A stretch of 64,000 nucleotides of DNA from Candidatus Gastranaerophilales bacterium (GTDB lineage: Bacteria > Cyanobacteriota > Vampirovibrionia > Gastranaerophilales > Gastranaerophilaceae), in assembly GCA_944325875.1 (NCBI GenBank), contig CALVBU010000001.1:186001-250000 (forward strand). Reading direction: 5' to 3'. The position numbers were made by a program, and so were the translations under genes. Below are positions 30,663 through 52,492 of the stretch, one piece after another (the first letter of the stretch is position 1; every line of letters begins with the position of its first letter). Below the pieces are notes generated by a model that was not told where the DNA came from, searched no databases, and saw only the letters and a list, made by a program, of their open reading frames with translations.

Positions 30663-30689
30663 AAAAAGCTCCATTATGGAGCTTTTTTT
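30661..30689. terminator. Bidirectional terminator
   Basis: AAAAAAAGCTCC/GGAGCTTTTTTT stem with a 5-nt loop, between the convergent P-loop kinase gene and the pilin ending at 30688; it overlaps the pilin stop. Confidence 0.9.
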
Positions 30690-31392
30690 AGTAACTAACT
30701 TTATAAGGATAATCATCTGGAATTTTCCAACCATTATATTGAATTAAGGCGGTACAATATTGCTTTCCACGAGAGCCAGCACCTTGGCCATTGCAACCAT
30801 CTAATAAAGCTTGTCTGGTACCATCCCATTGCCATTTCCAGGGTTCAAAACCTTTATTATAATGATATAACCAGTATTGAATATCAGCTCCAGGCTCTGG
30901 ATTAAATGTAAATGAAAAAGAACAAATTCCATTCGTATTTGAATAATCAGAAGTATTTATACAACGTTCTAAGGCCCCAGGGTAAAAAATCCAATCTCTA
31001 GTATTTGTACTTACAGACCTCAAAGCACTGCCATCTGGGAAATACACAACAAAAGAACCATCAGAAAGAATTTTAGACTTAGTTATCTTCATATATGGAG
31101 CTATATATTTGTTAAACCATTTTTCTTGCTCAGAACTTCCAGGCACTGGATTTCCATCATCATCAAAAGCTGCACCAGCTAAATCTTGATACCAAATCTT
31201 TTTATCCCCATAATCAACTTCTGCCATTTTTACGGCTTGATTAATTGCAGAATAAAACTTCATCAATCTTGTCTCTACTACTCTATTATTATTTTTTTGT
31301 ATTAGCGTCGGCATTGTCATAGCTGCTACTATTCCTATTATGCCTAAAGTTATCAGCACTTCTGCTAAGGTAAAAGCGTTTTTCTTTTTCAT
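30688..31392 (-). CDS. Prepilin-like protein with long conserved leader, no adjacent regulator
   Basis: 234 residues. The leader MKKKNA precedes FTLAEVLITLG (Ala at -1, Glu5). It lacks the DxNGxKxPN hallmark and instead has SFTFNPEPGADIQYWLYHY. The end, CTALIQYNGWKIPDDYPY, matches the pilin at 24901. The ribosome site is CGGAGG (plus-strand 31397-31402). Unlike the regulator-paired pilins it follows a roughly 190-nt leader almost identical to that of the pilin at 51129, with a small ORF, a G tract and a CCTCCG element. It is probably a minor pilin under translational control. Confidence 0.88.
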   Translation of the reverse strand: MKKKNAFTLAEVLITLGIIGIVAAMTMPTLIQKNNNRVVETRLMKFYSAINQAVKMAEVDYGDKKIWYQDLAGAAFDDDGNPVPGSSEQEKWFNKYIAPYMKITKSKILSDGSFVVYFPDGSALRSVSTNTRDWIFYPGALERCINTSDYSNTNGICSFSFTFNPEPGADIQYWLYHYNKGFEPWKWQWDGTRQALLDGCNGQGAGSRGKQYCTALIQYNGWKIPDDYPYKVSY

Positions 31393-31590
31393 TTATCCTC
31401 CGTTTATATACTATTTCTAATTTTAACATTTTTCATACAAAAAATCACCGTGTCTATTGGCACGGCTTAATCTTTAGCTCTTTTCTTTCAATCGGAGGCC
31501 TAAGTCGGAAATGCTTATCTCAACTGTTAGTTGGTAGCCCCCCCCCCCGAAATTCTATCTATACTTATCTTTTGCATACATCCTCCTTCT
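31393..31590 (-). promoter_or_regulatory. Conserved pilin leader RNA (copy 1)
   Basis: Read on the minus strand: AAGGAGG, a small ORF (31527-31577) with 11 G residues (31538-31548), a conserved stretch containing CCTCCG (31493-31498), a hairpin CCGTG/CACGG (31448-31465), then CGGAGG (31397-31402) and the pilin ATG. CCTCCG is perfectly complementary to the pilin ribosome site and could hide it. The same order occurs at 52206-52405 with scattered substitutions. It matches no riboswitch class I know. Confidence 0.7.
31527..31577 (-). CDS. Leader peptide with poly-G tract (copy 1)
   Basis: ATG 31575-31577 follows AAGGAGG with a 4-nt gap and encodes MQKISIDRISGGGATN, 16 residues, ending at TAA inside the leader of the pilin at 30688. 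The three Gly codons come from 11 G residues. With one more G, or two fewer, the frame would run on to TAA at 31474-31476 and give a peptide of about 34 residues ending LRLKEKS. The copy at 52340 has the same design, and several differences between them are synonymous (AAG/AAA, AGA/AGG). Confidence 0.55.
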   Translation of the reverse strand: MQKISIDRISGGGATN

Positions 31591-51128: not shown

Positions 51129-52205
51129 TTAATCACTCAGACAAATCGCCTGTATACTACTACTGCCACGATAGGAGCTCACGCCGAGGGCTGTGTAAGT
51201 AGGTGTAAAGAAACGGGAGTTTGCACCAGACCCATGGCTCGAGTAAGACTCTTCATTCGACCATAACTGGAAGCTGGGTTCCGGAAGACCTAATAAGGAT
51301 GCGGTACCTGCTTCGTACGTTAAGTTGGTAGCTCCACCGCCTGAACTTATGTTTGGGTTTCCCTTGTATATTGCACTAGCTATCTTTGCAAGGTCTGCGG
51401 GTGTTGTAAGGTTATTTACTCCACCACACTGTTTCACAGCACCTGCCCAATAATCATTAGGAATTACACATGCTGTTATTCCAAGGTTACCTTTTTGGGC
51501 TTCACATTCTGCTTTCGTTATTGGGGTTGGCGTAAATGGGGTACCGAAACATCTTCCACTATCCAGTTCTATTGCACAACTTGAACCTAAGCCATTTGCA
51601 TTGAATAGAGCTACATCCTCATTTTGTTTATTCGGTTTCTTACTTCCGTTTATTTCAAATACTGCTGCTACACAATTTGATGTCGCATTTGATACTGGTT
51701 TGTTGTCCTCTGTTGACCAGCCATAACTTTTTACTGGGTCTAACACTTCACATTTGGTATTGTATGATAGTATCATTGGCGTTCCGTCTGCTGTTATTAT
51801 ACCTACATTCGGACTACTGTAATCTGCAGTATCGCTGTTTTTCATTTGAAAATTCTTACCTGTCTGGATTTTTTCTACTTCATATTCTTTACCGTCTAGT
51901 AGTGTTATTGTATCATAAGGCCAGCACTCTCTTAGTTTGCTTGATGGACATACTTTTGCGATTTTCAAATGCTTTTGTAATTCTGCCACAAATGCTGCTG
52001 TACTGTCATAAGGCCCAATTAACCCCAGCGTTGCCATCTTTTCCGTGGCTTTCGTAAATTTGTACTTGACTGTTCGTATCTGTTCTGCTCGTACTTTCTT
52101 GTTTATAGCCTGATTTAATACAGGTAGTGTTATCGCTGCTACCACTCCAATTACTCCTAATGTGATTAGCACTTCTGCCAATGTAAAAGCATTTTTCTTT
52201 TTCAT
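51129..52205 (-). CDS. Prepilin-like protein with C-terminal C-type-lectin-like (DGR-target-like) domain
   Basis: 358 residues, the longest pilin here. The leader MKKKNA precedes FTLAEVLITLG (Ala at -1, Glu5). The pilin body has the hallmark FEINGSKKPNKQNEDVALF (about 183-201). An added domain (about 231-358) reads CVIPNDYWAGAVKQC, NLTTPADLAKIASAIY, FQLWSNEES and IQAICLSD, the skeleton of formylglycine-enzyme/C-type-lectin folds used by diversity-generating retroelements. The last ~35 codons before IQAIC are dominated by NNY triplets with many G/C first and second bases (CTC, GGC, AGC, CGT), unlike the AT-rich genome. The whole gene looks more GC-rich than its neighbours. It shares its leader with the pilin at 30688. 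Confidence 0.85.
   Translation of the reverse strand: MKKKNAFTLAEVLITLGVIGVVAAITLPVLNQAINKKVRAEQIRTVKYKFTKATEKMATLGLIGPYDSTAAFVAELQKHLKIAKVCPSSKLRECWPYDTITLLDGKEYEVEKIQTGKNFQMKNSDTADYSSPNVGIITADGTPMILSYNTKCEVLDPVKSYGWSTEDNKPVSNATSNCVAAVFEINGSKKPNKQNEDVALFNANGLGSSCAIELDSGRCFGTPFTPTPITKAECEAQKGNLGITACVIPNDYWAGAVKQCGGVNNLTTPADLAKIASAIYKGNPNISSGGGATNLTYEAGTASLLGLPEPSFQLWSNEESYSSHGSGANSRFFTPTYTALGVSSYRGSSSIQAICLSD
51150..51265 (-). other. Candidate variable repeat (VR) of a diversity-generating retroelement
   Basis: Codons for residues 315-350 of the pilin read mostly as NNC or NNT with mixed first two bases (25 of about 33 codons, for example TCT, TAC, AGC, CAT, GGT, CGT, CTC, GGC, TCC). That is what adenine-specific mutagenesis of AAY codons in a template repeat would produce. 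The stretch ends in a conserved IQAICL strand, as known targets do. No template repeat or reverse transcriptase is in the window. Confidence 0.5.
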
Positions 52206-52405
52206 TTAGTCCTCCGTTAATTTTTATTATCTGTTTCTCAAAAATTTTGCATCACAAATTGCCGTGTCTTTTGGCACGGCTTACTTTTTAGTTCTTTTTT
52301 TCAATCGGAGGCCTAAGTCAGAAATGCTTGACTCAACTGTTAGTCGGTAGCCCCCCCCCCCGAAATCCTATCTATACTTGATTTTTGCATATTAACCTCC
52401 TAATT
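52206..52405 (-). promoter_or_regulatory. Conserved pilin leader RNA (copy 2)
   Basis: Same order as the leader at 31393: AGGAGG, small ORF with 11 G residues (52351-52361), CCTCCG element (plus-strand CGGAGG 52306-52311), hairpin GCCGTG/CACGGC (52261-52280), pilin ribosome site CGGAGG (plus-strand CCTCCG 52211-52216), ATG. The hairpin has one more pair than in copy 1. The rest of this 380-bp gap, to 52585, holds the transketolase promoter. Confidence 0.7.
52340..52390 (-). CDS. Leader peptide with poly-G tract (copy 2)
   Basis: ATG 52388-52390, five bases after GGAGG, encodes MQKSSIDRISGGGATD, 16 residues, then TAA. It differs from copy 1 at two residues. Adding one G to the tract would extend the frame to TAA at 52281-52283 (36 residues, ending LRLKKRTKK), reading across the CCTCCG element and stopping at the foot of the GCCGTG hairpin. 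Confidence 0.55.
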   Translation of the reverse strand: MQKSSIDRISGGGATD

Positions 52406-52492
52406 CAACTTATTTGCTTCTATATTATTATATTAAACTATTTTTTTTATTTTTCAAGACATTCTCAATTAGTATAAGATATATTTACATTT

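Follow-up and report, generated by a model that had tools for sequence, protein, structure and literature searches.

Poly-G leaders upstream of prepilin-like genes in a Gastranaerophilales genome as candidate phase-variable upstream reading frames

Control of pili by a variable leader peptide has been described for the Pil1 and Pil3 pili of Streptococcus gallolyticus, where a leader peptide with GCAGA repeats acts through a hairpin; a short leader corresponds to the low state, and longer leaders ending at or in the hairpin correspond to the high state (PMC3894217). In the sortase-dependent pili of Bifidobacterium breve, tracts of G10, G11 and G12 are found, of which G11 is out of frame and G10 fuses the ORFs, and the lengths vary within the population (PMC9187656). 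Poly-G contingency genes are also known from Campylobacter, whose genomes carry many G tracts at genes for surface structures (PMC6321876).

The leader described here is similar to the S. gallolyticus system in that phase variation of a leader ORF would shift the position at which the ribosome stops relative to a hairpin located before pilus genes. In contrast to S. gallolyticus, a homopolymer of Gs forms the repeat, and the target that is conserved is apparently the Shine-Dalgarno sequence, reached via a CCUCCG element. There are also about 40 independent copies, each serving one prepilin gene, in a host from an uncultured non-photosynthetic cyanobacterial lineage. With B. breve it shares the gut habitat and pilus genes with G tracts of similar length; the B. 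breve tract lies inside the pilin coding region, as it does in congeners of the present bacterium, whereas here it is part of a separate leader ORF. As in Campylobacter, there are many G tracts per genome at genes for surface structures, but the Campylobacter switch usually breaks the gene itself, and to our knowledge the arrangement described there does not include a leader with an element that sequesters a Shine-Dalgarno sequence. In translational attenuation of the erm type, a leader ORF controls the exposure of the next Shine-Dalgarno sequence by alternative pairing. There, ribosomes stalled by a drug provide the signal, whereas in the present leader a DNA repeat would do so by its length. 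The ideas of the S. gallolyticus and B. breve systems are combined here in another phylum: the leader carries poly-G, it apparently acts through sequestration of the Shine-Dalgarno sequence, and it is present in about 40 copies. A literature search found no paper joining Gastranaerophilales and phase variation.

The leader at 52206-52405 is located on the minus strand of the window, i.e. the whole stretch of 64,000 nucleotides that was analysed, upstream of a prepilin-like gene of 358 aa (51129-52205, minus strand, as are all features given below for the window). From 5' to 3' it consists of a GGAGG Shine-Dalgarno sequence, a small ORF (ATGCAAAAATCAAGTATAGATAGGATTTC), eleven Gs, CTACCGACTAACAG, a variable stretch, AAGCATTT..GACTTA, CCTCCG, a hairpin GCCGTG-N8-CACGGC, CGGAGG, and the ATG of the pilin gene. 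Just 5' of the leader ORF, a consensus scan found a sigma-70-like promoter candidate, TTGAAA-16-TAATAT (52430-52457), with a score of 9/12, which alone is no better than chance. The Shine-Dalgarno sequence of the leader ORF is found at 52396-52400 and the G11 tract at 52351-52361. At this tract length the leader ORF is short (52340-52390), encoding MQKSSIDRISGGGATD and ending with a UAA directly 3' of the tract. One additional G would result in an extended ORF (52281-52390) with its stop 67 nt after the tract; this TAA (52283-52281) abuts the GCCGTG hairpin (52261-52280, found in a sequence scan), as the initial annotation had noted. CCUCCG, a putative anti-Shine-Dalgarno element conserved among the copies, follows the tract after exactly 39 nt (52306-52311). 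It is complementary to CGGAGG, the Shine-Dalgarno sequence of the pilin gene (52211-52216), as seen in sequence, pairing and folding analyses. The encoded protein starts with MKKKNAFTLAEVLITLG and matches PF07963 (N_methyl, E 1.8e-5); a lectin tip, which had been ascribed to a pilin of the window, is unsupported, as Pfam shows the N-terminal prepilin motif alone in the 358-aa protein. No Rfam family scored above its gathering threshold for the leader.

A leader with the same parts is located at 31397-31577. Its promoter candidate, TTGAAA-17-TATAAT, reached 11/12 in the consensus scan, and its short leader ORF (31527-31577) encodes MQKISIDRISGGGATN and contains a G11 tract at 31538-31548. CCUCCG (31493-31498), a hairpin (31447-31466) followed by GATTTTTT, and CGGAGG (31397-31402) precede a prepilin-like gene of 234 aa (30688-31392; PF07963 and PF20318). 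The body of this prepilin belongs to DUF6613 (PF20318, E 1.8e-26), a family of unknown function. Only 0.02 nine-G matches are expected by chance in the window, in which both of the initially reported G11 tracts are present, on the minus strand. Before the tract, the differences between the two copies are largely synonymous, as had been claimed: AAA/AAG and AGG/AGA are synonymous, TCA/ATA is not. The frame reached by one additional G is also similar past the tract in both copies, which share LTVE and SISDLGLRLK.

A search of the whole genome raised the number of leaders from the two originally recognized to 39, all of which precede prepilin genes beginning with MKKxNAFTLAEVLITLG or similar. Each copy has a Shine-Dalgarno sequence and a small ORF of the type MQKxxIDRIS; the starts of the leader ORFs of L018, L022, L083 and L108 were assigned by hand, the ATG of ATGTATGCAA being a wrong start. 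Tract lengths, which are those of the assembly consensus, are G11 in 33 copies, G12 in five and G10 in one. The genome contains 38 tracts of at least 11 Gs, the same number as there are leaders with such tracts, so that essentially all long G tracts in this genome are leaders. As the prepilin N-terminal motif has 116 matches (E up to 0.1), about one third of these genes carry a leader. In the congener G012 (public record CASDPF01), at least 45 such leaders are located before prepilin genes, 43 of 45 with G11; the remaining congeners have zero or single copies of the leader in its exact form. The initial annotation had expected other tract alleles to be frequent, and this held in part: other lengths exist, at 5/39 for G12 and 1/39 for G10 in this genome and at 2/45 for G10 in G012.

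The reading frames were compared in an alignment of 45 nt past the tract from 83 copies (38 from this genome, 43 from G012, two from G002). A stop before position +40 occurs in 83/83 copies in the G11 frame, in 71/83 in the G10 frame and in 3/83 in the G12 frame, the latter being open past CCUCCG in 80/83. Column shuffles gave expectations of 82.1, 60.6 +/- 2.2 and 8.8 +/- 2.0 stops, respectively, and the observed counts for G10 (71) and G12 (3) were reached in 0/300 shuffles, a statistic that is not independent and not a probability, the 83 copies being related by duplication. The comparison says that the combinations of letters are apparently arranged to shut two frames and to open one. Exceptions are six of the 39 own copies in which the early G10-frame stop is absent, and at least one copy (L038) with a G12-frame stop before CCUCCG. 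In L002, a G12 tract is accompanied by a one-base loss upstream, which keeps the end of the leader ORF in the short-stop frame. With L002 corrected for this, 34/39 own copies have the short-stop state, four read through (L003, L009, L030, L033) and one has G10 (L036).

Codon positions differ on the two sides of the tract. Before it, third positions vary most in a column table evaluated by hand (two freely varying codons left out), and this part looks coding. Past the tract, variability in the extended frame of 77 copies is highest at second positions (0.60 bits), followed by first (0.42) and third (0.33) positions, and the extension is therefore not conserved as a peptide. Accordingly, the coding-like character that had been seen on both sides of the tract holds before it but not after it. 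An excess of synonymous changes, which the initial annotation had anticipated after the tract, is absent; counted up to the stop of the shorter copy, the two window copies differ there by one synonymous and three amino-acid-changing sites. The same annotation had regarded substitutions that ignore the frame but preserve base pairing as a sign of RNA function, and by this measure the data favour the view that the RNA and the position of the ribosome play a role. Its proposal that both reading states matter agrees with the depletion of G12-frame stops and the enrichment of G10-frame stops relative to the shuffles; the reason offered, conservation of the extension as protein, was not borne out by the substitutions past the tract. 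What is kept there is that the G12 frame stays open and the other two are closed, together with RNA elements, namely CCUCCG, its complement in the pilin Shine-Dalgarno sequence and the hairpin.

Some close paralogues have tracts of different lengths. L003 has G12 and L004 has G11, with 97.5% identity after the tract, and L239 (G11, OFF) and L249 (G10, ON) are 96.7% identical. According to PMC9187656, G tracts can cause problems in Illumina reads, so the assembly could conceivably have affected the tract lengths, although the lengths called are consistent between numerous loci and genomes. A loss of mismatch repair was rejected in part as the reason for the variation, as mutS is present in all 13 congeners, in one of them as a partial gene. 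At least six congeners have the same G-tract module, with tracts of similar length, inside the prepilin ORF, between an N-terminal peptide (e.g. MQNTIIASKL or MKTIDMTGF) and the FTLAEVLITLG motif, so that one of three tract lengths yields a full-length prepilin. These tracts appear to show the origin of the leader module. Among 76 such genes (from L180-L315; genomes G002, G005, G006, G008, G009 and G011), 59 need one G fewer, eight are in frame and nine are one G short (chi-square p 3e-15). This excess of tracts with one G too many holds for every ON length modulo 3 and for each well-sampled genome. Selection for OFF, an insertion bias or programmed slippage are possible reasons for resting alleles that are one base off the productive length.

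The CCTCCG element is present at +40 in 39/39 own copies. In G012, for which the count was made with a pattern not requiring CCTCCG, CCUCCG is found in 39/45 copies, CCUCCU in four, and CCUCUG and UCUCCG in one each. At the pilin start, GGAGG is preceded by C in 61/77 and by T in 12/77 copies, either of which pairs with the G of CCUCCG. The GGAGG of the leader ORF itself is preceded by A in 60 copies and by C in one, and C is found in 0/13 other genes of the window (Fisher 4e-8). An A at this position would pair better with 16S rRNA, yet most pilin starts use C. Across all loci, C is found in 73/96 leaders with the hairpin versus 2/14 pilin genes without it (p 1.3e-5). In several relatives the letters have changed and complementarity is kept: AUCCUCUGUU versus GAACGGAGGAUG in L155 (-15.0 kcal/mol, 0/300 shuffles), CUCCAAA versus UUUGGAG in L264 (p 0.003), UCUCCGUU versus AACGGAGG in L293 (p 0.003) and UACCUCC versus GGAGGUA in L177 (p 0.007). 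As these pairs show, the upstream element covaries with the Shine-Dalgarno sequence of the pilin gene in relatives; in the same pairing analysis, no complementary element was present in L239 and L302.

The conserved hairpin is located between CCUCCG and the CGGAGG of the pilin gene. In the two main species, CCGUG-N8-CACGG is nearly constant, and compensatory variants occur elsewhere (CCGUU..AACGG in L317, UUGUG..CACAA in L325). The loop of the hairpin shows strong conservation in L001-L039 (CCAANNGA); a hairpin acting simply as a spacer would not require this, and the loop may be a protein-binding site. In partition-function folding, the mean unpaired probability of the pilin Shine-Dalgarno sequence was 0.12 in the free leader and dropped to 0.02 when a ribosome was placed on the short stop. 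It rose to 0.60 with a ribosome on CCUCCG and to 0.59 with CCUCCG scrambled. As the folding test blocks CCUCCG by design, these values speak for plausibility only. The G12-frame stop is located 10-11 nt before the hairpin in 33/77 copies and 18-25 nt after the hairpin start in 29/77.

Because of the folding values and the positions of the G12-frame stops, translational attenuation is proposed: pilin translation would be switched by the leader acting as a phase-variable upstream ORF, with G11 as the OFF and G12 as the ON state, a reading to which a probability of roughly 0.55 is assigned. The tract would gain or lose Gs by replication slippage. At G11, and usually also at G10, a ribosome translating the leader ORF would halt right after the tract and leave CCUCCG free to pair with CGGAGG, thereby keeping the pilin gene OFF. 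At G12, the ribosome would cross CCUCCG and end at or in the hairpin, and with CCUCCG occupied, pairing would be prevented and the pilin start exposed (ON). This proposal builds on sequence and computation as regards the components and how they are spaced, the pattern of frames, the covarying complementarity and the tract differences between paralogues; transcription of the leader, slippage within a population and the assignment of ON and OFF are inferred. G12-frame stops at +91 or beyond count against the mechanism, because a ribosome stopping there would dwell on the hairpin and not on CCUCCG.

The main rival is transcription attenuation as in Pil1, in which the hairpin would terminate transcription prematurely unless a longer leader peptide brings the ribosome onto it, so that the polymerase continues into the pilin gene. 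The anatomy is the same as in S. gallolyticus, with a repeat in the leader ORF, a short form that ends well before the hairpin and long forms that end at or in it (PMC3894217); moreover, the hairpin was scored as terminator-like by a scan and is followed by T4-T5 in many copies. However, the U run is weak in the 52206-52405 copy (AATTTGTGAT) and absent in L155, L293 and L325, in which the hairpin and the CCUCC:GGAGG complementarity persist, and a purely intrinsic terminator is weakened by these relatives; transcription attenuation is considered rather unlikely. Another view is that the leader is a relic, carried along by gene duplication after the pilin genes had gained their own starts. This would fit the observation that the extended leader frame fuses to the pilin ORF in congeners but no longer in this genome; with CCUCCG invariant in 39/39 copies that differ elsewhere, an exact 39-nt spacing and stops arranged by frame, it is highly improbable.

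Two further explanations start from the predominance of G11. Programmed slippage of RNA polymerase or the ribosome would make the out-of-frame tract the normal allele, with a fraction of transcripts or ribosomes shifting frame. G11 accounts for most tracts in G000 and G012, and the 59 of 76 congener prepilins that are exactly one G over, whatever their absolute length, show alleles resting in one state. The required shift differs in sign, however, being -1 in congeners and +1 in this leader, paralogues vary in tract length, and selection for OFF together with a slippage bias could look similar; programmed slippage is considered quite unlikely. The same low likelihood is given to a wider scenario, in which dozens of pilin genes per genome would be held one base off and normal expression from polymerase or ribosome slippage, together with slow switching of the DNA, would constitute a genome-wide system of recoding and phase variation for pilus composition in these gut relatives of cyanobacteria. 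Alternatively, G11 could be a fixed structural element without phase variation, for example a two-tier G-quadruplex or a UCGGGGG:CCUCCGA pairing. G11 is dominant in two species, UCGGGGG is complementary to CCUCCGA, and this pairing is part of the minimum-energy fold of L037. On the other hand, alleles of G10, G12 and G13 are found, the congeners have tracts of various lengths inside ORFs, and in L002 the G12 tract offsets the upstream base loss, which means that the frame and not the tract length is kept. A fixed element is regarded as very unlikely.

If translational attenuation by a phase-variable leader is true, some 40 (this genome) to at least 45 (the congener G012) independent, near-identical phase switches would act on prepilin genes, an array that far exceeds the two known switches in S. 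gallolyticus. As the repeat is part of a separate leader ORF and would act on the start of translation, the pilin protein would never carry it. This would also explain why many prepilin genes of the group look frameshifted, and annotators should not call them broken.

A run of 11 or more Gs occurs at least once in 156/239 genomes of the family as sampled. A scan of viral contigs gave one unrelated match with a short G run, and matches of a pattern scan of genome contigs in Nostoc, a Streptomyces and a deltaproteobacterial contig were judged from the organisms to be chance or unrelated. The PF07963 prepilin motif has 96 to 150 matches per genome in G000, G012, G002 and G011, with genome sizes of about 2-2.8 Mb. 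A lone G13 leader (L040/L073) is located on a contig of 7468 bases (G006:C43) from a species otherwise without the leader and is possibly a recent transfer or a contamination. At L323/L153 (G005:C3, near 108169-108205), a G18 leader is followed by about 50 nt of low complexity and then by the usual continuation; the low-complexity stretch is possibly an assembly artefact at the tract. The start module consisting of MQN.. or MK.. and poly-G is also found on genes other than pilin genes (L197, L205, L283, L201 and L203), which include glycosyltransferase-like ORFs (L205, L197), fucosyltransferase-like ORFs and probable envelope proteins.
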